Assembly: GCA_022641775.1 (NCBI GenBank) | Contig: JALCDS010000006.1 | Span: forward strand, 1-64,000 | From: Clostridiaceae bacterium | GTDB lineage: Bacteria; Cyanobacteriota; Vampirovibrionia; Gastranaerophilales; Gastranaerophilaceae | DNA: 64,000 nucleotides | Direction: 5' to 3' | In this document: piece by piece, positions 8,703-58,560 of the stretch | How positions within the stretch are numbered: position 1 is the stretch's first letter | How the letters are laid out: every line of letters starts with the position of its first letter | Notes under the pieces: generated by a model | Databases searched by the model: none | Told to the model about the DNA's origin: nothing | Seen by the model: only the letters and a program-made list of their open reading frames with translations | Translations under genes and position numbers: made by a program

Positions 8703-9053
8703 ATGTTTGACACAAACAACAATATAATGCCTCGTTATGACTTGGCAGGGAGAATTGAACATACAAAGCTTGATACAGGCTTTGGGGGTATGCCGTCTGC
8801 AAGAATAGGCGAAGTTGAAGATACCTCGACTTCTGATTTTAAACAAGTTATGTCAGGATTGGTAGAAAACTTTAATACTCAATTGAATGAGCCGGACAAT
8901 TTGTTAAAAGACGTTATGTCAGGAAACAAAAACGTTGATATCCACGATGTTATGACTGCTATGGCAAAATCAGAAATCAGTGTCAACGTTGCGACTCAAT
9001 TGACAGGGAAAGTAATTCAAGCATACGACAAGATTATGCAGATATCTGTATAA
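8703..9053 (+). CDS. fliE: Flagellar hook-basal body protein FliE
   Basis: C-terminal VDIHDVMTAMAKSEISVNVATQLTGKVIQAYDKIMQISV; directly upstream of fliF. Confidence 0.85.
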   Translation: MFDTNNNIMPRYDLAGRIEHTKLDTGFGGMPSARIGEVEDTSTSDFKQVMSGLVENFNTQLNEPDNLLKDVMSGNKNVDIHDVMTAMAKSEISVNVATQLTGKVIQAYDKIMQISV

Positions 9054-9103
9054 AATATATAAAATAACCAGACAAATTTAAAAAAGACTAAGGGAAGAAA
9101 AAC

Positions 9104-10771
9104 ATGGATTTTCAAAAATTAATGGAAAACAAACCGTTGCTATACTCAATAATAGGTGGGCTTGTAGCAGTATTTTTGTTTGTTACGATTATCGGAATTG
9201 TTGTTGGTAATAAAAATGCAAGTAAACCTCAAACCGTCAGTGAACAGCCGCTGAAAGAGGATGTCGACTTATTAACAACTGATAATTTGGGCAAAGCTTT
9301 GGAAATTCAAGCACTTTTGGCAAAAAGAAATATTGCTGTTAGCCGTAAGCTTGATGGTACAAAATCAATTCTTTATTTGAAAAAAGGTGATTGTACAACA
9401 GGATTCAAAAAATGTACTACAGAACAACGTGATATGGCAATTATTGCTATTGTTGAAAGTGGTTTGTTTGATGAAAACGTAGGTCTTGAAGTTTTTGATA
9501 AAGGTGATTTTACTTCAACTAAGGAAGATAAGAAAATTAGATTGACTCGTGCTATAAATGGTGAGTTATCAAGACTTATCAGAAAAATAAGCGATATTGA
9601 TAATGCTACAGTATTTATTTCTATTCCTGAGCAAACAATGTTTTCATCAATGCAAAAACCTGTAACTGCAACAGTTCAGATTGCGACAAAAGATGGTGAA
9701 AGACTTGATCAAGGAAAAGTTAAAGCAATAACAAATTTACTTTTAGGCAGTGTAAGCGGGTTAACACCTGAAAATGTTTCAATTACGGATACGAATGGTA
9801 ATGTATATCATAGCATTATGAATGCAAATGATGATATGATAGAAAAAGTCGAAGAAAACGACAAATATATGCAACAAAAAGTTTCCTCTCAATTGGATAG
9901 TTTGGTTGGTAAGGGCAATTATGTTGCAACAGTAAGTACATTCTTACGTCAAGCTCCTGTAGAAAAATTCACAGTAGAATATGATCCGAACAAAAAAGCT
10001 CCTATAAATCAACAATCATTCCAGGAAGGATTGGGCGACAGAACAGCAGATGCTAATAGAAATACAAATGCGGTAAGTGTTTATCTTCCAAATGGTTTGG
10101 GTGCCGGTAATTCTAATTCAAGTCAGGACAGAAGCTATTCTCGTTCTGCTACAGAAACCCAATATGGAGTTACAAAAACTCAAACTAATGAATATATTTC
10201 GCAAGGTGTTGTTGAAGATATTTCAGTCGCAGTAACATTGGACAGAAATGCGATTCCTGAAAATACTACAATGGATGAATTGAAAGAACTTATTGCAAAA
10301 GCTGCAAGCCCGAAAGTTTCTGCAGCAAATGTTTCTATTGCATTTAAGGATTCAACAGATCCTAATTTATTGACAGATAAGCCGTCAAACCTTCCAAAAC
10401 CTGATGAAACAGGTAATCCTTGGTGGTTAGCAATTGCATGTTCAGGGATAGGTCTTTTGATTGTATTAAAGATAGTATCTGACAAGGTTAGGGCTGCAGA
10501 AGAAGCAAATAAAGAAGAAGTAGAAATGTTGCGTCAACAAGCAGCTCAACAAAATGCTCAATTAGATAATATTCACCAACAAGCTGCGCAGTTAGCATCT
10601 CGTCAATCAGAATTGGCTCAAGGCTTGATTGATCAGCAGAATAGAGAATTGCTGCCGCAACAGCAAGATCCTGCACTTTTAGCAAATGCACTTGATAGTC
10701 TATCAAATGAACTTTCAAATGAAGATGATGAAACTGCCGATAAGATAAAGAGTTGGATTGAAGAAGGATAG
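9104..10771 (+). CDS. fliF: Flagellar MS-ring protein FliF
   Basis: N- and C-terminal TM helices, secretin/YscJ-like region (IDNATVFISIPEQTMFSSMQKPVTATVQI, VKAITNLLLGSVSGLTPENVSITDTNG). Confidence 0.9.
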   Translation: MDFQKLMENKPLLYSIIGGLVAVFLFVTIIGIVVGNKNASKPQTVSEQPLKEDVDLLTTDNLGKALEIQALLAKRNIAVSRKLDGTKSILYLKKGDCTTGFKKCTTEQRDMAIIAIVESGLFDENVGLEVFDKGDFTSTKEDKKIRLTRAINGELSRLIRKISDIDNATVFISIPEQTMFSSMQKPVTATVQIATKDGERLDQGKVKAITNLLLGSVSGLTPENVSITDTNGNVYHSIMNANDDMIEKVEENDKYMQQKVSSQLDSLVGKGNYVATVSTFLRQAPVEKFTVEYDPNKKAPINQQSFQEGLGDRTADANRNTNAVSVYLPNGLGAGNSNSSQDRSYSRSATETQYGVTKTQTNEYISQGVVEDISVAVTLDRNAIPENTTMDELKELIAKAASPKVSAANVSIAFKDSTDPNLLTDKPSNLPKPDETGNPWWLAIACSGIGLLIVLKIVSDKVRAAEEANKEEVEMLRQQAAQQNAQLDNIHQQAAQLASRQSELAQGLIDQQNRELLPQQQDPALLANALDSLSNELSNEDDETADKIKSWIEEG

Positions 10772-10811
10772 ATAAAGTAAAATAAAAATATTATATTGAT
10801 AAGGGGAAAAG

Positions 10812-11819
10812 ATGACAGCGCAAGGCTTTGATTACAAAACATTCGTACAAAATTTGACACAACAAGCACAAGAAATTGTACCACAAGAATTTGACGACAA
10901 TCAGAAGGGTTATGTAGTCAATACTCTGTTTAATTTTGCAAATGTCGCAGGACAAGCTCTCGCTGAAGATCCTTCACTGAATTTTTCTGCCGAACAGGCT
11001 CAAATGATTACTCAGATTATTGCTGAGTGGTCGTTTCATAAATCTGTGGATTTAATTCGTTCCGGAATTCCGCAACAATATTGGGATCCTGTTATGCAAA
11101 AAATTGCGTATGTAATTTTTGAAATTGCAAAACAAACATTCTCTCAGAATCTTCCTCAGGATCAAATTCTTGATGTTATTCAACACCATGTTGATAAGAC
11201 TTACAAAGAATGTATTGAAGAATTAAAACAGAAAAACCTTATTACAGGAGAATTGGCAGATGTTGCAGAACATGAATCAAATATTGATCAAATGATGCAA
11301 GATGCTGCAACCCAACAAGAAGCACAAGATGCGCAAGGAGAACCTCCTGCAACACAATCCGGAATAAATATAGATGCAGCTACAGCTGCTGCTGTTCCAT
11401 TAGGTGCCGGAGGAAAAACTCTTAAACTTGCTACATTAGCACTTTTGTTTAAACGGATGAAGCAGGACAGAGTTCAAACAATGTTGGATAAGTTCCAAAC
11501 TGATGATGCCAATTCTGTTATAAAATTTATGAATGTTCCGGATTTGGAATCAAAAGTTGATACAAATATTGCGCTGAAATGTTTACAAGAGATTAGAACA
11601 AATCTTCCTACGCAACTTGGAACGCTCACTCCGGCCAAGCTTATTGCTAAAATGCAAAGTATAGCACAATATATCGACAGACCACGTTTAGAGCAAATGT
11701 TACAGAATGAGCGGCCGAAAGTCAAAAGATTTGTATTCAATGCAATAGATGGTGAGTTTTATTCTATATCTCCAAAAGTTGCAAACATTATTGCCCACCA
11801 TATAGAACTTAGTGTATAA
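10812..11819 (+). CDS. Divergent FliG-like motor-switch candidate (by position and weak C-terminal similarity)
   Basis: Lies between fliF and fliH; 335 aa; C-terminal alpha-helical repeat-like region LKLATLALLFKRMKQDRVQTMLDKFQTDDANSVIKFM. Confidence 0.5.
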   Translation: MTAQGFDYKTFVQNLTQQAQEIVPQEFDDNQKGYVVNTLFNFANVAGQALAEDPSLNFSAEQAQMITQIIAEWSFHKSVDLIRSGIPQQYWDPVMQKIAYVIFEIAKQTFSQNLPQDQILDVIQHHVDKTYKECIEELKQKNLITGELADVAEHESNIDQMMQDAATQQEAQDAQGEPPATQSGINIDAATAAAVPLGAGGKTLKLATLALLFKRMKQDRVQTMLDKFQTDDANSVIKFMNVPDLESKVDTNIALKCLQEIRTNLPTQLGTLTPAKLIAKMQSIAQYIDRPRLEQMLQNERPKVKRFVFNAIDGEFYSISPKVANIIAHHIELSV

Positions 11820-11830
11820 TATAGTTAATC

Positions 11831-12523
11831 ATGATTATTAAAAAGAAGATAAAAAAACAGGACGTAACAGAAGAGCATATAGAGCCTAAAGAATCGCCCG
11901 AAAGTGTTGATGAAAATTCTATTGACTTGTTCAATCTTGATAATATAGATTTTAAACAACGTCAGGAACGCCGCAGAGGGGATAGGCGACGTGGTTTTCG
12001 TCGTGTTGATGACAGGAATTTGATATCTCGTGCCAGAGAAGAAGCTGTAGCAATAAAAGAAGCTGCAGTAAAAGAAGGATATCAAAAAGGACTTGCTGAT
12101 TCCAAGGCTGATATTGAAGAATTGAAAAATTCTTTAGGAGTTTTTTTGTCGGCCAAACAGGATGTATTTGATTATATAGCCCCAAGCATTCTTGATATAA
12201 GTATTGATATTGCTGAAAAAATCATTAAAAAGGAAGTAGAACAAGATCCTCAGATTATAATCAATAATATAACTGAGATTTTAAAATCTCTATCAAAAGA
12301 TGAAAGCAGAATTACACTAAAAGTCAATCCTATACAAGTTGATTTGTTAAAACAAGAGATGCCTGAAGTGATGGGCAGTATGGGATTAGACGCAAAAGTT
12401 AATGTTATACCGGATGAAACGGTTTTAGAAGGCGGATGTATGGTAACAACGACAAACGGGATTATTGATGCCACTTTAGAAACCCAATTATCCATAATTA
12501 GTGAGGCATTAAGGGAAATTTAA
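11831..12523 (+). CDS. fliH: Flagellar assembly protein FliH-like
   Basis: Position between fliG-like and flhA; AREEAVAIKEAAVKEGYQKGLADSKADIEELK, EGGCMVTTTNGIIDATLETQLSII. Confidence 0.8.
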   Translation: MIIKKKIKKQDVTEEHIEPKESPESVDENSIDLFNLDNIDFKQRQERRRGDRRRGFRRVDDRNLISRAREEAVAIKEAAVKEGYQKGLADSKADIEELKNSLGVFLSAKQDVFDYIAPSILDISIDIAEKIIKKEVEQDPQIIINNITEILKSLSKDESRITLKVNPIQVDLLKQEMPEVMGSMGLDAKVNVIPDETVLEGGCMVTTTNGIIDATLETQLSIISEALREI

Positions 12524-14634
12524 TGGCACAAGCAGAACAATCAGCAGCACAGGGAGGAAACGGAGCAAATTTAAGCGAAATCGTAACCGCGTTATTCGTT
12601 CTAACTCTTATCGTCCTTTTGTTATGCGAATTGCCTAACTGGGTTATTAATATTTGTATATGTTTTAATATTACCCTAGGTATTGTTCTGTTGATGATAT
12701 CGTTATATGTTAAAAAGACTTTGGAATTAGCATCATTTCCATCAATCCTTCTTATCGGTACAATGTTCAGGTTGGTTTTATCTATTGCATCAACGAGGTT
12801 GATTTTATCAAAAGGTGAAGCCGGTGAAGTTATTCATGCATTCGGAACATTCGTAACCGGTGGTAATATGATTGTTGGTGGTGTTATATTCTTGATTATC
12901 ACGGTTGTACAATTTATGGTAATCACAAAAGGTGCTGAACGTATCGCTGAAGTTGCTGCCAGATTCGCATTGGATGCTATGCCAGGTAAACAGATGACAA
13001 TTGATGCCGACTTTAACGCAGGTTTGATTTCACCTGAAGAAGCTACTAAACGAAGAGAGGATTTGCAAAGAGAGTCAAACTTATTTGGTAGTATGGATGG
13101 TGCTATGAAGTTCGTAAAAGGTGATACGATAGCAGGTATCATCATCGTATTGATTAACATTATCGGTGGCTTATGTATCGGATGTTTAATGAATCAAATG
13201 CCTGTTGCAGATGCGGTTTCAAAATATACGGTATTAACAATAGGTGATGGATTGGCATCGCAGTTACCATCTTTGTTAATGTCAATATCAGCAGGTATCT
13301 TTATGACACGTTCATCTGCAGCAAATTCATTAGGTGTTGATGTTGCAAGCCAGATTGTAAGTAAGCCAAATGCATTGTTCTTGGCTGCAGGTTTCTTGAT
13401 GTTCTTGGCATTTACATCCCACTTTACAGGTTTGCCGTTTGGTCCGTTCTTCTTGTTCTCAATTGGTCTTGGAGTTGCAGGATTTTCTCAACTCATCAAT
13501 GCGGATGTTCAATCCCAGTTGGGTCAATTAGAAAATGTTCGACAGAATATGCAAGATTTGGTTAATCCGAATAGAATGTATGAACGTTTGGGTGTTGACG
13601 TATTGAGCTTGCAGGTAGGTTCAAATTTGCTTGTTATTGCCGATCCTGATCAAGAAGGTCAGTTGTTGGCAAAAATTGCTGCACTTCGTCAGAGAATTAC
13701 GGATGAATTAGGTTATATTATTCCAAACATAAGAATTATGGATTCTTCAGCACTTGATGCGAATGAATATATGATTTCAATTCGTGGTAATACTGTTGCA
13801 ACGGGATATGTTTACCCCGGCAAATTGATGGTTATTGCTGATCAATGGGATGCAACAGGTAAAGAAGTTCCGGAAGATGCGATTATAGGTATCGATCCGA
13901 CATACCAAACTCAGGCATATTGGATTACGGCAGATGATGCTAAAACATCAAGAACGGTTACTGCGGTTGATCCTACAGATGTTATTGTTACACACTTACA
14001 GGAATGTGTAAGAAAACATGTTGACGATGTTATGACCAAGACAGATGTCTTAAAATTGATGGAATTGGTTCGTTCTCAAGATCCAACGCTTGTTAATGAC
14101 CTTGTTCCTACAATTATTTCAACCAGTGATTTGAGAAAGATTTTTGTTAACTTAATCAGAGAAAAAGTTTCAATAAAAGATATTATATTTATTTTTGAAA
14201 GACTTTGTGATTATGCAAGATTTTCAAAAGAACCGGATATATTGTCTGAAAGACTTCGTGCTGCCCTAGGTCGTCAAATATGTCTTGCAAATGTTCAGGA
14301 AGACAATGTATTGTATGCGTTGACACTTTCTCCAGAATGGGAGAAAACGCTGGATGACAGTTGTCAGAGAACCGAACTTGGTACAATGTTCTTGCTTAAT
14401 CCAATGCAAGTTCAAGAACTTATTGAATCTACGGCAACAACATTGATGAGAGCGCATCAGGCATGCGGAGAGCAGCCTGTTGTCTTGTGTTCCCCTAGAA
14501 TAAGATTGCCACTGTTCCAGTTGTTGGAACGTCATATACCGACGATTGTTGTAATTTCTTATTCTGAATTGATTACTGATATAAAGGTAGAAGCTGTTGA
14601 TACAGTTGGGGAAGCATACGCTGAAGGTGAATAA
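12523..14634 (+). CDS. flhA: Flagellar/type III export gate protein FlhA
   Basis: FRLVLSIASTRLILSKGEAGEVIHAFG, ERIAEVAARFALDAMPGKQMTIDADFNAGLI; FHIPEP family length and topology. Confidence 0.95.
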   Translation: MAQAEQSAAQGGNGANLSEIVTALFVLTLIVLLLCELPNWVINICICFNITLGIVLLMISLYVKKTLELASFPSILLIGTMFRLVLSIASTRLILSKGEAGEVIHAFGTFVTGGNMIVGGVIFLIITVVQFMVITKGAERIAEVAARFALDAMPGKQMTIDADFNAGLISPEEATKRREDLQRESNLFGSMDGAMKFVKGDTIAGIIIVLINIIGGLCIGCLMNQMPVADAVSKYTVLTIGDGLASQLPSLLMSISAGIFMTRSSAANSLGVDVASQIVSKPNALFLAAGFLMFLAFTSHFTGLPFGPFFLFSIGLGVAGFSQLINADVQSQLGQLENVRQNMQDLVNPNRMYERLGVDVLSLQVGSNLLVIADPDQEGQLLAKIAALRQRITDELGYIIPNIRIMDSSALDANEYMISIRGNTVATGYVYPGKLMVIADQWDATGKEVPEDAIIGIDPTYQTQAYWITADDAKTSRTVTAVDPTDVIVTHLQECVRKHVDDVMTKTDVLKLMELVRSQDPTLVNDLVPTIISTSDLRKIFVNLIREKVSIKDIIFIFERLCDYARFSKEPDILSERLRAALGRQICLANVQEDNVLYALTLSPEWEKTLDDSCQRTELGTMFLLNPMQVQELIESTATTLMRAHQACGEQPVVLCSPRIRLPLFQLLERHIPTIVVISYSELITDIKVEAVDTVGEAYAEGE

Positions 14635-52122: not shown

Positions 52123-53028
52123 ATGTCTTTTATGAAAATTCCTGAAGTCTCATATAATTTTATGCACAGAGTAACCTCTGTATTCAAATCAAAACCAAAA
52201 GTAACTACACAAGGTTTGCCTGATATATTATATCAGGTTTCTAATGATACATTTTGCAAAAGTCCGATAAAAACTATCGAAGATTTTTATAAAGCTCAAA
52301 AATTTGAAGTTGAAGATTATAAAAATATGACACCTGAATTGAAGAATAGAATTGCAAAATCTGTCCCTGCCGGTGTTAAGTATAGAGTCAATGAAACAAT
52401 TGGACCATCAATTGCTATAAAATCTTTTTTGGATAAAAAATACGGGGAAAATAATTACATATTTTTATCACTCGGAACGTCCCCTTCTACTGTTGCAAAA
52501 GCTCTAGAATTTATGGGGGTTGAAACTAAGTATATGCCAGGCTCAAAGTTGTCTGAATTGTATTGTCACCATCCTCATTTCTATTATAAAATAAAAGCTT
52601 ATGCAAAATATATGAATGATTTAGGAATTGAGAGAAAATTATTAAAGAGCAGACAAAAGAAACTGGTTTGTTATGATTTTACTTTTTCAGGGGAATCTTT
52701 GAGAATGTTCAAGTATATGGCATGGCATGAAGGTAAACTTTCAATATTTAATACTCGTTTTAGAAGCTTGAATGATGATTTATATAAAATTGCCAGAGAA
52801 AAAGGGCATGCAAATATGTTTGATTATTTTGTAAAAAATCATATGGGATGCTCTAATGTGCAGCATTTTTCAACTATTCCGCATATAAATTTTATGGAAT
52901 TTGATAATATTGAAAAAATAATGAAAAACCATAACTATACACGCGATGTAAAGTTTTTCAATTTCGATTTGTTTAAAGCTTTAGAAGATAAAATGGCTAA
53001 ATGTAACCAATCTCAAACTCTCCGTTAG
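52123..53028 (+). CDS. Hypothetical protein
   Basis: 301-aa ORF; YIFLSLGTSPSTVAKALEFMGVETKYMPGSKL and LVCYDFTFSGESLRMFKYM. Confidence 0.75.
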   Translation: MSFMKIPEVSYNFMHRVTSVFKSKPKVTTQGLPDILYQVSNDTFCKSPIKTIEDFYKAQKFEVEDYKNMTPELKNRIAKSVPAGVKYRVNETIGPSIAIKSFLDKKYGENNYIFLSLGTSPSTVAKALEFMGVETKYMPGSKLSELYCHHPHFYYKIKAYAKYMNDLGIERKLLKSRQKKLVCYDFTFSGESLRMFKYMAWHEGKLSIFNTRFRSLNDDLYKIAREKGHANMFDYFVKNHMGCSNVQHFSTIPHINFMEFDNIEKIMKNHNYTRDVKFFNFDLFKALEDKMAKCNQSQTLR

Positions 53029-53932
53029 CAAAATTTACTCTAACTCTTAACGTTGTATTATTATACCCGTCAGGTGGAGCGGAGAAGGTTGGAACACTCA
53101 TCAACATATAGTAAACTGCATCATTTAATGATTTGTTATCAGACATTCTTACAAATTTGCGATTCAGAAGTTTTCCGTTATCACTAACAGAAAAAGAAAC
53201 TGTACAACTTCCTGAGCCAGAAAGCCCCCCTACAACAAATTTAGAATATAATCTTCTAAGTAGAGCACTGTTATAATTTGAAGTAGCCTGATAATCAATT
53301 CTTGATGTTTCTTGGGCTTTAGGTGCTGAAACTGTTGGAGCTTTAACTACATTAGTTGTATGTGGTGTAGAAACTCTTATTATTGGTTTTGCTGTTACAG
53401 GTTTTGCTTTTGGTTTTACCTTTTTAACAGCGGTATTCTTTTTAACCGGTTTAAAGATGATTGGAGTCTGGACAACTTTTGGTTGAACATTATATGATGT
53501 TGTAGGCTTGTTGAACAGTTGGCTTACAAAAGGTGGTTCTTCAATTTGGATTGTCTTAACTTTTTGAGGTGCAGGCTGTTGAACAGGTGTCGGGGCTTTT
53601 GGCGTTACTTTTACCGGAGTATTATCCCAAAAAGTATCCAAATTCGGAATGTTTTCTACTTTTTGCAATTGCTTGTGAACTTTTTTAGTTGAAGTACTTT
53701 TTTGAGGATTCCAAGCAAAAAATATTATAAGCAATGAGAGTAAAATACACATTGAAAATATACCCCATGATATAACGTTTGATTTATCAATAGGCTTTTT
53801 TTCAATTGTAGATTTTGGCTTTTTCGCTATGGTTGGTGTGTCATCAACGATATTGAAAGTATTATTTCCACAATCACAATACTCTACTTTTGAATTAAAT
53901 TCTTTTCCACAATCTTTACAAATAAATTTCAT
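52997..53932 (-). CDS. Zinc-ribbon, TM, TonB/TolA C-terminal-like protein
   Basis: N-terminal CKDCGKEF...CDCGN, TM VISWGIFSMCILLSLLIIFFAW, Pro/Lys/Thr-rich linker, C-terminal GSGSCTVSFSVSDNGKLLNRKFVRMSDNKSLNDAVYYMLMSVPTFSAPP. Confidence 0.7.
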   Translation of the reverse strand: MKFICKDCGKEFNSKVEYCDCGNNTFNIVDDTPTIAKKPKSTIEKKPIDKSNVISWGIFSMCILLSLLIIFFAWNPQKSTSTKKVHKQLQKVENIPNLDTFWDNTPVKVTPKAPTPVQQPAPQKVKTIQIEEPPFVSQLFNKPTTSYNVQPKVVQTPIIFKPVKKNTAVKKVKPKAKPVTAKPIIRVSTPHTTNVVKAPTVSAPKAQETSRIDYQATSNYNSALLRRLYSKFVVGGLSGSGSCTVSFSVSDNGKLLNRKFVRMSDNKSLNDAVYYMLMSVPTFSAPPDGYNNTTLRVRVNFANGEFEIGYI

Positions 53933-53951
53933 AATTTTAGTCTAGCACAAA

Positions 53952-54137
53952 TTAAATTATTGGCACAATATGCTTAATAATAAGTACCATAAAAAAAATA
54001 AGTAGCATCATTATAAGTGCAGTGGATGTTTGATGCATTATATCAATTTCTTTTTGATACTTTTTGTATTTTAAAAACAGCCTGTATTCAATAAAGGTAA
54101 GACATATTAAGATTAATATTGCAATGATTTTGATCAA
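53952..54137 (-). CDS. Small two-TM membrane protein
   Basis: 61 aa, two hydrophobic helices; packed within the operon. Confidence 0.55.
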   Translation of the reverse strand: MIKIIAILILICLTFIEYRLFLKYKKYQKEIDIMHQTSTALIMMLLIFFMVLIIKHIVPII

Positions 54138-54149
54138 AAATAAATTCCT

Positions 54150-54305
54150 TTATTTTGTATTTTTTTGTACTTGAGTTTTGATAATTAATTTTTCAATAAG
54201 CATTGTAGGGTGCATTTTTGGTTTGAAATTCAATACAACAGCTGTTCCTATTACAAGTAGTATAATTAATAAAATTCCTATAATGCTAAATTTTTTCAAA
54301 TCCAT
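54150..54305 (-). CDS. Small single-TM protein (below ORF-track cutoff)
   Basis: My translation: MDLKKFSIIGILLIILLVIGTAVVLNFKPKMHPTMLIEKLIIKTQVQKNTK*; fills the gap between neighbouring operon genes. Confidence 0.5.
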   Translation of the reverse strand: MDLKKFSIIGILLIILLVIGTAVVLNFKPKMHPTMLIEKLIIKTQVQKNTK

Positions 54306-54307
54306 AG

Positions 54308-55198
54308 TTATTTTACCCTTTCATAATCTGAATAATCATTAGGTGAGGCATACCTATCAGCAGTAGACATTACAAATGAGCCTGCAACTATAGTAGAAGT
54401 TCTTCTTGTTCCTCTCGGGAAATTCAAAACTGAAGAGCGTTGAAGTCCTGCTATTGCCGGCTTTACGTATCGTTTTGAAATTGGTGTATATTCTGATGCT
54501 GTTGACCAAGTATTGATATTTGAAATGTTGCCGTATTTATCAACTATGCAAGAAAACATAAATACTGTTCCAAGCGGAGCGGCTATATTTCCTGAATTTT
54601 GCATAACTGCATTTTGAAAATTTGCTCTCCATTTGTTCCAAGCAATAATTTCTTCTTGATCTGTCATGTAAGGATTGCCGTTTTTGTGATTATTTACCTG
54701 TGGTTTTGGCTGCTCATTTTGCTGACCTGTAAGTGTTTTTACAACTGTTTTTACTTCATTATTGGTCAGATTTTTATTTGGATTTTTTTGACTTTCATTT
54801 ACAATTTCTTCAAATGTTTTTTCATGATGTGGTGTTGGCTTTGAAACTACCCTTTGAGTTGTACTTTTCGGTTGATTTACATATACAACTCTTTGTTGTT
54901 GCGCAGGTTTGTTTTGCTGAAAAATCCAATTATTTTGGTTACTTATAGCTGGTTCTGTCGGAATTGTATAAGTTTTAGGCTGTACGACATGAACTACATG
55001 TGTTGTGTTTGTCGTTGCAGGTTTCATTGTAGATACCGGTTGTTGTTCAATTTGTTTTTGAATTTCTTGAACTTCTGTAATTTTGAAATCTTGATTTTCC
55101 AGTATCACAGGTTTATGTACGTCAGGATGTGTGGCGATAGTTCCTAACGTCAATATTACAAACAATATTATGTATAAAACTTTAAAAAAAGTATTCAT
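54308..55198 (-). CDS. TonB/TolA-like protein
   Basis: N-terminal TM, Pro/Gln/Thr/Val-rich linker, C-terminal APLGTVFMFSCIVDKYGNISNINTWSTASEYTPISKRYVKPAIAGLQRSSVLNFPRGTRR. Confidence 0.65.
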   Translation of the reverse strand: MNTFFKVLYIILFVILTLGTIATHPDVHKPVILENQDFKITEVQEIQKQIEQQPVSTMKPATTNTTHVVHVVQPKTYTIPTEPAISNQNNWIFQQNKPAQQQRVVYVNQPKSTTQRVVSKPTPHHEKTFEEIVNESQKNPNKNLTNNEVKTVVKTLTGQQNEQPKPQVNNHKNGNPYMTDQEEIIAWNKWRANFQNAVMQNSGNIAAPLGTVFMFSCIVDKYGNISNINTWSTASEYTPISKRYVKPAIAGLQRSSVLNFPRGTRRTSTIVAGSFVMSTADRYASPNDYSDYERVK

Positions 55199-55200
55199 GA

Positions 55201-56814
55201 TTAATCTTTATCTAATTTTGCTATCAATTCATCACAAGAAGTTACTTCAAATCTTGTTTGACTCATCATAACTGTTTCAGCGATTAATAATGCCGTTGGA
55301 ACAAGTGCTGCTACGATACTCAAAAGAATACCGTTAAGGTCTCCACCTATTTCTGTCATAAAATAGGATACGTTCATTGAAAATTCAATCAAGATAATTG
55401 AAATAGCTATTGCAAAAGAACGTCTCTTTTCAAATTCCAAACGACGGATGCCTTCAAGTCCGTAGATTGTTACACCGTGTTGAATGTAATCAGAAAATCC
55501 GTCTTGTTTTATAACTTGTGAGCCTTGAATTTTCTTTGAAGCTGTAAATGCACTTACAAACGTAAAGAATGCAAATATAATCAAGAAAGTTGCTAATACC
55601 AAGAATACAGGGCTTATTCTTAAGCCTGAAATTCTTACCCAACCGGCAGCTTCAGGGAAACACATAGCTAAGGTGTTTGAAACACCATATGCTAAGAACG
55701 GTGCTGTTAAAATACCTACCAAAATTTCAAAACCTGATTTTATTTGTAAATTGAACATCTTGTCTTTTATATATTGGATTTTTGAATTGCTTAAACTGTT
55801 TACATACCTATCAATCCATTTTCTGTAAGCTTTTATTACACCTTCAAAATCTTCTCTGTATTCATGTTTATTTAATTCCAAATTCCATTCAGATTCGTTA
55901 CACTTAAAGTATCCGCAACTTATTGCAAGAACTGCCATAATTCCTGAGAAGAAGAATGAAATAAATATTGCAAATGTCAAAAAGTCATTCAAATTCATAT
56001 AATAAACAAGGTTTACAACATAAATTCCAAGTACAAATATAAGTGCAAATGTCAACATAAATACTTCTGCTATTTTGTTTGAACGGTTCATGTCTTTTTG
56101 GATATTACTTTGCAGGTATAAATAGACACCTTGTTTTAGTAATAAACATATTCCGTAAATTAAAACTGTGTAAATCCCCCAAACTTTTAAGTTTGTAGGA
56201 AGATGAAGATAATTTGCTGATTCTTGAATTGATAAACCCATAAGGTAGTTTGAAACACCAAATGCGCAAACCATTGCACTAAATAGCATTGCTATATGTA
56301 AAAATATCTTTGTTCTTCCGTTTGAGGTTAATTTAGATTTTAAATCGGAGATTGTAAACCCAACTTCTTTGATAATACTTACACGAGCAGCTTCAATATC
56401 TTCTTTTTGTTTTTCAAGTTTAACTTTTGTTGAAGCATTTACTTCATTGCCGTAAAGACCTTTGATATCTGCTTCTGTAAAGTCTTCTTGCGCGATTGAA
56501 GTTACCGTCTTTGAATGTGAAAAATCTTCTTTTACCAGTCTCACACCGATAAATTCATCAGTATCAGCAATCATAATTTTGCAAACATCACTAATTTCGA
56601 TTTTTTTAATCGGTTTGCCTCTAAATAAAACTTTCGGAGATTGGAAGTTATTTATAATAGTACATTTTTGAGTGTCCGGATTGTATTGAACCGAAATCAA
56701 AAGATCAAAATTGATATTCAGTTTAACGTCGCAATTCGGGTTAGAACCTATGTTAATTACATCTGTACCTGCAAATGTTTTTTCTTCAGTAGATGTTGAA
56801 ATTATAACTGCCAT
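55201..56814 (-). CDS. Polytopic membrane protein with N-terminal FHA-like domain
   Basis: INIGSNPNCDVKLN...KVLFRGKPIKKIEISDVCKIMIADTDEFIGVRL followed by multiple TM helices. Confidence 0.65.
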   Translation of the reverse strand: MAVIISTSTEEKTFAGTDVINIGSNPNCDVKLNINFDLLISVQYNPDTQKCTIINNFQSPKVLFRGKPIKKIEISDVCKIMIADTDEFIGVRLVKEDFSHSKTVTSIAQEDFTEADIKGLYGNEVNASTKVKLEKQKEDIEAARVSIIKEVGFTISDLKSKLTSNGRTKIFLHIAMLFSAMVCAFGVSNYLMGLSIQESANYLHLPTNLKVWGIYTVLIYGICLLLKQGVYLYLQSNIQKDMNRSNKIAEVFMLTFALIFVLGIYVVNLVYYMNLNDFLTFAIFISFFFSGIMAVLAISCGYFKCNESEWNLELNKHEYREDFEGVIKAYRKWIDRYVNSLSNSKIQYIKDKMFNLQIKSGFEILVGILTAPFLAYGVSNTLAMCFPEAAGWVRISGLRISPVFLVLATFLIIFAFFTFVSAFTASKKIQGSQVIKQDGFSDYIQHGVTIYGLEGIRRLEFEKRRSFAIAISIILIEFSMNVSYFMTEIGGDLNGILLSIVAALVPTALLIAETVMMSQTRFEVTSCDELIAKLDKD

Positions 56815-56827
56815 TTTTTACTCCTCA

Positions 56828-57502
56828 TTATCTTCCAAGAACATTTATGAATGTTCTTATAGCTTTATCAGTACTTTCTTTTGTGGCAACAATAAGTTTT
56901 GTTTCGCCGAGAACAGGTGTCAACTTATCTTTAACCAAATCCAATTTTGAAGGATGTGCATCCAAAAACATCATTGTAAGTTCGGGAGCATATGTTTTAA
57001 CATGTGCTACATTTTTTGGTAATGTAGACCAGTTTAGTTGTTTGGTGACATCACCTTCATTTGCCAAATCTCCGATAACAACGATTGCCGGATTGTAGCC
57101 TGCTTGCTTCATCGACAGAGCATATTTGAATGCTTTTCTCATTCCGATTCCGTAGGCTGTGCCATAATCTTTTGCATTGTATTGAGTGAAAGCATTCATT
57201 GCTTTTGTTATTTCACTTCCATTCATTGGAGAACCTTCATAAATCAAATAAGCATCTTCAGATACGTTGAATATTTTTATTTTATCTTCAGGATCAAGTA
57301 AATTACAAATTTGTCTCAAAATTTTCTTTTGTTCAGGCAAATTCTTTTGGTTTGAAGCTGATGAATCAACTACAAACATAACGGCTTCAGGATGGAAGTC
57401 ATCAACTTTAATCTTTCTGGCTGCACTCCATACCAATTTCCCAATGATTGACATTGCAAGAATTAGTATTCCGATTGTTATTATTCTTTTATTCAATTTC
57501 AT
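56828..57502 (-). CDS. Membrane-anchored VWA-domain protein
   Basis: N-terminal TM RIITIGILILAMSIIGKLVWSA; VMFVVDSSASNQKN (DxSxS MIDAS); AIVVIGDLANEGD. Confidence 0.8.
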   Translation of the reverse strand: MKLNKRIITIGILILAMSIIGKLVWSAARKIKVDDFHPEAVMFVVDSSASNQKNLPEQKKILRQICNLLDPEDKIKIFNVSEDAYLIYEGSPMNGSEITKAMNAFTQYNAKDYGTAYGIGMRKAFKYALSMKQAGYNPAIVVIGDLANEGDVTKQLNWSTLPKNVAHVKTYAPELTMMFLDAHPSKLDLVKDKLTPVLGETKLIVATKESTDKAIRTFINVLGR

Positions 57503-57552: not shown

Positions 57553-58560
57553 TCAATTATATGGAGAAATATTAATAGGTTGAGTGAGTTTTAATTGAAT
57601 TTTTGTGCCGTCAGGAATTTTTACGTCATCCCCTCTGGTCATTGCTCCGTGCGCTCCACCGGCTACGGTTCCGATTCCTCCGCCAATTGCAATTGCACGT
57701 ATAAAATCTTCTCCACCGGCACCTCCGGTTAGTAAAAATCCTAACATTCCTCCCAAAATCCCCATTCCTGTTCCGATTAATACATCACGGGTCATATTTT
57801 TGGCACGAGTGCTTTTTGCGGTTACAACAATTGTTTCTGTTGAAATTTTAAACGGAGAGCCGTTTGTCGGTTCAATCTCATCAAATTGTATCGCCATAGA
57901 GCCTGAACCATAGGCATATCCTGCGGATTTTGAATCCTGAACGCTGCCTGATACCATGCTGCCTGCAGGTGCAACTACTCTGCCGTTATAGACAAAATCT
58001 TGCGGCAACGTTACGGTAAGTCTGTCACTTTTGTCAAGGCTTCCGGAACTTATTCCCGATTCAAATACAACATCAAAAGTTGTTCCTGCCGGAACATATA
58101 CAACAGAGCCTTGTAACGTTTTGTTTGTTGGTGAAGATGTTGTAGATGTGTTGGTTTCATCAACATTATTATTATCATTATTATTATATTCTTGATAGTT
58201 AGAATTGTCATTTTGGGAATTGTTATCTTGATAATTATCCGAGTTGTCATTATTTTGATAATTGTTAGTATCTTCATTATCTGAATTGTTTTCATCGCTC
58301 GGATTTACATAATTATCCTCGTCAACATAGACTGGTGGTTGTGTTTTGGTCTGAGAAGAGTTTTTGTTTTTAGGCTTTTCAACCGAATAATCATCGTTTT
58401 TTGAAGTCGGATTATATGTGTTTTGATTATCAAATTGGCGTTGCGCTTCATCTGAAAAATCATATTTGGAATAGTCAAAAACCTCAGCAGATACAGGTAG
58501 TAATGTTATATTTACTGCCAATACTAATGCTAATAAAACTTTTCCATACTTATTCATCAT
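57553..58560 (-). CDS. Secreted protein with Asn/Asp-rich linker and glycine-zipper segment
   Basis: Signal peptide, NSDNEDTNNYQNNDNSDNYQDNNSQNDN... low-complexity region, GTTFDVVFESGISSGSLDKSDRLTVTLPQDFVYNGRVVAPAGS, GTGMGILGGMLGFLLTGGAGG. Confidence 0.75.
   Translation of the reverse strand: MMNKYGKVLLALVLAVNITLLPVSAEVFDYSKYDFSDEAQRQFDNQNTYNPTSKNDDYSVEKPKNKNSSQTKTQPPVYVDEDNYVNPSDENNSDNEDTNNYQNNDNSDNYQDNNSQNDNSNYQEYNNNDNNNVDETNTSTTSSPTNKTLQGSVVYVPAGTTFDVVFESGISSGSLDKSDRLTVTLPQDFVYNGRVVAPAGSMVSGSVQDSKSAGYAYGSGSMAIQFDEIEPTNGSPFKISTETIVVTAKSTRAKNMTRDVLIGTGMGILGGMLGFLLTGGAGGEDFIRAIAIGGGIGTVAGGAHGAMTRGDDVKIPDGTKIQLKLTQPINISPYN

Follow-up and report, generated by a model that had tools for sequence, protein, structure and literature searches.

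A cassette of six genes on the minus strand, at 52997–57502 of the 64,000-nucleotide stretch of contig JALCDS010000006.1 analyzed here (the window), is a real unit with a gene order conserved beyond chance. The window comes from a member of the Gastranaerophilales, gut bacteria branching near cyanobacteria. The cassette combines a von Willebrand A protein (VWA), a polytopic membrane protein (POLY), two proteins with TonB/TolA-type C-terminal domains and two membrane micro-proteins. It belongs to neither the Ton nor the Tol systems. As a first-pass annotation made from the sequence alone had supposed, the combination appears to be undescribed – no named system matching the whole cassette was found in Pfam, NCBIfam, PHROGs, PADLOC, a PDB sequence search or a full-text search, and no paper describing such a combination of genes turned up in the full-text literature. 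Fold assignments and synteny are established by computation. For function and energy source we infer, tentatively and with something near an even chance, that the cassette encodes a trans-envelope coupling complex, Ton/Tol-like in working, with an unfamiliar inner-membrane platform.

Gene content and conservation of the cassette

In order of transcription, the cassette encodes VWA (56828–57502, 224 aa), a transmembrane (TM)-anchored von Willebrand A domain with a complete metal-ion-dependent adhesion site (MIDAS) motif; POLY (55201–56814, 537 aa), with a degenerate, cytoplasmic FHA fold in residues 1–95, a helical linker and about eight TM helices; TonB-like 1 (54308–55198, 296 aa), with a TM anchor carrying a PxMHKP motif, a long linker and a TonB/TolA-type C-terminal domain; TM51 (54150–54305, 51 aa), a single-TM micro-protein homologous to the TonB-like 1 anchor; TM61 (53952–54137, 61 aa), a two-TM micro-protein with a TTG start that is found in close relatives only; and TonB-like 2 (52997–53932, 311 aa), with an N-terminal zinc ribbon, a TM helix, a long linker and a TonB_2 domain. 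The coordinates of these six open reading frames (ORFs) and their close packing were verified, the successive gaps from VWA to TonB-like 2 being 13, 2, 2, 12 and 19 nt.

Relatives of POLY were found at 310 loci in the genome collection. The best 80 were fetched, and the locus counts given here refer to these 80 plus the window's own POLY (81 loci); they are lower bounds, because some contigs stop near the cassette. VWA adjoins POLY in 80 of the 81 loci, TonB-like 1 directly follows POLY in 78, and TonB-like 2 is present in 70. Both micro-proteins recur in place, a TM51-like gene in about 64 loci (upstream of the gene UP335 in 9 of these) and TM61 in 31, its position unchanged. Median spacing is 2 nt from POLY to TonB-like 1 and about 18 nt from VWA to POLY. 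The core order is kept around the 81 POLY genes, which range from 53 to 100% identity, and also in loci down to 40%. The flanks vary – the commonest flanking gene is a divergent plsY (57 loci), and no other is found in more than 36.

The six genes hold together as a unit, as first proposed, but this unit often begins one gene before VWA, with UP335 (57553–58560, minus strand). The product of UP335 is secreted and has a TrbI/VirB10-like domain and a glycine zipper; the gene ends 50 nt upstream of VWA and is the first in about 50 of the 81 loci. Some genomes contain second copies of the cassette with different neighbors. Two such copies (in G012 and G015) are without VWA and retain UP335, POLY, TonB-like 1 and TonB-like 2, and these four genes therefore look like the core. 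In a scan for promoters and terminators, promoters were no commoner than chance would give and terminators numbered 6 versus 3.2 ± 2.1. A convergent 301-aa ORF with no family match (52123–53028, plus strand) shares 32 nt with the 3' end of TonB-like 2.

POLY was found in 27 of 59 relatives and in 26 of the 36 within the window's own family; it also occurs in one genome from another family of Gastranaerophilales. Of 386 genomes sampled from the phylum, 128 encode POLY, and among the matches listed all belong to the window's family. Matches with a stated lineage are all Gastranaerophilales, nearly all from one family. Conservation of gene order, which the first-pass annotation had proposed to check in both Melainabacteria and Cyanobacteria, holds in the Gastranaerophilales relatives and is not seen across the Cyanobacteria of this sample. 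The informative record titles among the 80 fetched loci name Gastranaerophilales, Melainabacteria or cyanobacteria, except for two that seem misnamed. These two loci (L067, titled Fusobacterium sp. CAG:439, and L122, titled Brachyspira sp. RUG745) carry the Gastranaerophilales cassette and are probably misnamed metagenome bins.

Domains and folds of the encoded proteins

The VWA protein matches Pfam VWA_2 (E 7e-9) and VWA (E 2e-5), and the predicted MIDAS motif is borne out by all five metal-site residues (D46-S48-S50, T115 and D145), which are invariant in 30 homologues. Its TM helix has an acidic residue in the core in 2 of 108 sequences, and a histidine or an SHLS motif in none of the 108.

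TonB_C-like domains had been proposed for both TonB-like proteins, and both assignments are supported. TonB-like 2 matches Pfam TonB_2 (E 2.6e-7), and hhalign also pairs it with the C-domain found in the order's canonical TonB (E 6.5e-10). No Pfam TonB match was found among 43 homologues of TonB-like 1; when its last 127 residues were modeled with AlphaFold2 (predicted local distance difference test score, pLDDT, 86), they took the arrangement helix-strand-strand-helix-strand, and the best PDB matches of this model are the C-terminal domain of Helicobacter pylori TonB, Pseudomonas aeruginosa TonB and TolA-III (Foldseek probability 0.93–0.98, E 0.01–0.06). TM51 consists of the TonB-like 1 membrane anchor – TM helix and PxMHK motif – without the remainder (hhalign E 1.6e-14), a duplication that suggests a common docking site. 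In 25 of the 81 loci the cassette is followed downstream by a convergent gene whose secreted product has a C-terminal domain of the TonB type (for example L065:10610–11350, minus strand) and aligns with canonical TonB at an hhalign E of 1e-16.

At the sequence level, POLY is unmatched in Pfam, NCBIfam, PHROGs and the PDB. Its AlphaFold2 model, built from 50 sequences (pLDDT 80), begins with a beta sandwich whose top PDB matches in Foldseek are FHA domains, with a probability of 1.0 and a TM-score on the target of up to 0.77. The FHA fold suspected in the first-pass annotation is therefore supported, but the reading of phosphothreonine that FHA domains are known for is not. The S-R-x-H motif of FHA domains occurs in none of 111 POLY homologues, and G-R is found in 1 of the 111, the arginine being replaced by threonine or serine. 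Ser/Thr kinase matches occur in 17 of 59 genomes, many of them weak. A phosphothreonine reader was rejected, and phospho-signaling is unlikely, because the binding motif is lost and such kinases are scarce in these genomes. Use of the domain as a phosphorylation-independent scaffold appears more likely than signaling; the degenerate FHA domain of PrgH in type III secretion was likewise concluded to act as a scaffold without phosphorylation (PMC3635987).

The rest of POLY consists of about eight TM helices, judged from hydropathy and conservation in 111 sequences. Across these sequences, conservation within the protein is highest in the latter half of the membrane region. Six residues are present at about 100% (E477, T507, E513, T370, N481 and H446), of which the first five are in or close to TM helices; E477 and T507 are near the midpoint of their hydrophobic segments. 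A comparison of the two halves as a 4+4 TM repeat scored 21.1, against 14.7 ± 2.3 (maximum 19.1) in 40 locally shuffled controls, which is suggestive only.

The PF03743 (TrbI) family is matched by 21 of 32 members of the UP335 family (best 1.1e-7), though the window's own copy is unmatched when taken alone. Like VirB10/TrbI of type IV secretion, UP335 has a TrbI-type domain. Unlike them, it has a signal peptide, as judged from the sequence, in place of a membrane-anchored N-terminal part, and VirB partners were not recognized nearby – no VirB-type gene recurs among the clustered neighbors, the unnamed clusters being judged by eye. Several proteins similar to UP335 are encoded elsewhere in the window's own genome. 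In two other genomes, UP335-like glycine-zipper proteins adjoin a canonical tonB-exbB-exbD-exbD operon (L172:1–337 and L177:1–390, minus strand).

Relation to Ton, Tol and other known systems

The cassette resembles the Ton (ExbB-ExbD-TonB) and Tol-Pal (TolQ-TolR-TolA) systems in having inner-membrane-anchored proteins with a linker and a TonB/TolA-type C-terminal domain, and in encoding a polytopic inner-membrane protein in the same gene cluster. It differs in having no ExbB/TolQ, no ExbD/TolR and no SHLS motif, and in adding the VWA, FHA and TrbI-like parts. No homologue of ExbB or ExbD was found within the cassette operon, and no plug domain of a TonB-dependent receptor in the window's own genome, which is 94% complete; TonB-dependent uptake was set aside for lack of a plug domain in this genome. 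The genome encodes two proteins with OmpA-like domains, neither linked to the cassette. The usual energy-transmitting role of TonB/TolA proteins, on which the first-pass annotation drew, was not supported for this cassette: none of 198 TonB-like sequences has an SHLS-type motif, ExbB and ExbD are not adjacent, and no plug domain was found in the genome. A single canonical tonB-exbB-exbD-exbD operon is encoded elsewhere in the genome (G000:C22:1–3000, L168). Two different ExbD genes belong to it, as they do in most relatives.

The closest idea in the literature is that of TM-anchored vWA "force transducers" that adjoin TolQ-like motors without tolR (PMC12204202). In the cassette, too, the gene for a TM-anchored VWA protein adjoins that for a polytopic inner-membrane protein, with no tolR or exbD. 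However, POLY is not TolQ-like in sequence or fold, the TM helix of VWA has neither the SHLS motif nor a pore-helix aspartate, and the operon also encodes TonB-type proteins. Like YscD, PrgH and MxiG of type III secretion (PMC3635987), POLY is a membrane protein whose cytoplasmic end forms an FHA fold without the phosphothreonine motif; those are ring proteins with a periplasmic domain, whereas POLY has eight TM helices and a distribution unlike that of type III genes. A defense or phage system was dismissed, as there was no credible PADLOC or PHROG match. None of the findings set beforehand as telling against the first-pass proposal – missing TonB_C or FHA folds, an unconserved gene order or a match to a named system – was made.

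Proposed function and rival explanations

In the proposed coupling complex, POLY would be the inner-membrane platform, its FHA domain docking a cytoplasmic partner or a second POLY without phosphorylation. The anchors of VWA, TM51 and TonB-like 1 would dock on POLY, and the TonB-like tips would span the periplasm to reach a binding partner, for which UP335 is the simplest candidate, at the outer membrane or in the cell wall; VWA would contribute metal-dependent contacts. More speculatively, two invariant residues inside the membrane, Glu477 and Thr507, may let POLY drive the arms by an ion gradient. In favor of the proposal are the conserved cassette and its four-gene core, the FHA fold with its lost motif, the MIDAS site of VWA, the TonB-type tips, the TrbI domain of UP335 and the similar proteins next to the canonical TonB operon in two other genomes, the duplicated anchor and the nearly invariant residues in or near the TM helices of POLY.

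Several results weigh against this proposal. The SHLS-type motif is absent from all 108 TonB-like 1 and all 90 TonB-like 2 sequences. POLY shows no similarity to ExbB, TolQ or MotA: its hhalign probability against ExbB is 0.1, and there is no ExbB in its top 50 Foldseek matches; POLY as a homologue of these motors was dismissed on Pfam, Foldseek and hhalign. Its eight-TM part has no convincing Foldseek match and no recognized family. Since this part shows no similarity to a motor, the case for energy coupling comes down to conserved residues. In addition, about one-third of the loci have no recognized UP335 nearby.

The strongest rival, somewhat unlikely on balance, is a passive tether, with POLY as a scaffold from which the TonB-like tips and VWA statically join inner membrane, cell wall and outer membrane; it would serve stability or the anchoring of surface proteins, without energy transduction. 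An operon with neither a motor homologue nor an SHLS motif is what such a tether would have, and the degenerate FHA domains of PrgH and YscD are scaffolds (PMC3635987), but invariant acidic and threonine residues within the TM helices of POLY exceed the needs of a scaffold. Alternatively, POLY could act as a transporter or channel, with lipid or glycan precursors among the conceivable substrates, and the other proteins would guide the substrate across the periplasm. The eight helices, the possible 4+4 repeat and the invariant membrane glutamate are in keeping with this, as are the plsY gene found in divergent orientation at 57 of the 81 loci and the MlaA- or MCE-like genes in about 12 loci each (by eye). 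However, POLY matches no transporter family, the nearby lipid genes are inconstant and plsY is on the opposite strand, and this explanation is unlikely. Taking the coupling proposal to its full extent, POLY might be an ion-driven motor with a fold unrelated to MotA, ExbB or TolQ and with Glu477 and Thr507 as its ion path, pulling a VWA head and the arms of TonB type against a partner in the outer envelope that resembles TrbI; this is decidedly unlikely.

It is very improbable that the TonB-like proteins serve the cell's ordinary ExbB-ExbD motor as additional arms, regulated by POLY and VWA. The genome does have a canonical operon that could supply the motor, but the SHLS-type motif missing from the cassette's TonB-like proteins is present in canonical ones – those of the order show S-x3-H or SH in the TM helix, by eye – and the lack of a receptor plug domain also argues against such arms. 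Finally, the cassette could be a missing part of the window's flagellar-type type III apparatus, its FHA domain being used as in YscD and PrgH. POLY, a membrane protein, does begin on the cytoplasmic side with a degenerate FHA domain, and fliE, fliF, fliH and flhA are within the same window. However, FlhA is found in 57 of 59 genomes and POLY in 27, and their linkage is not fixed; a role in the flagellin-less apparatus was dismissed on this distribution and is hardly to be credited. A replacement for flagella was also rejected: the negative association between POLY and flagellin in the full set of 59 genomes (p 1e-4) is only weak within the family (p 0.06) and so probably reflects phylogeny.

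Flagellar-type genes in the window

The region 8703–14634 (plus strand) contains fliE, fliF, an unmatched gene at the fliG position, fliH and flhA. The window's own genome has no flagellin match, and its sole MotA/ExbB gene is ExbB. Two classes of FlhA can be distinguished among the matches in the order; genomes with flagellin carry one, and nearly all genomes carry the other. This pattern suggests a second type III apparatus, without flagellin, that is conserved order-wide.

Significance

The envelope of gut Gastranaerophilales is little studied in the literature searched, and in the cassette these bacteria have a conserved membrane system. The known systems that transfer energy from the inner to the outer membrane through TonB/TolA arms share one motor family, ExbB/TolQ with ExbD/TolR (PMC12204202). 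In the cassette the arms are present, but the place of the motor is taken by an eight-TM protein, POLY, with no family match in the searches. Either such arms function motor-free or a motor of a different kind exists, and each alternative is testable. If POLY were a motor, the energization of the outer membrane would have evolved independently in these bacteria.

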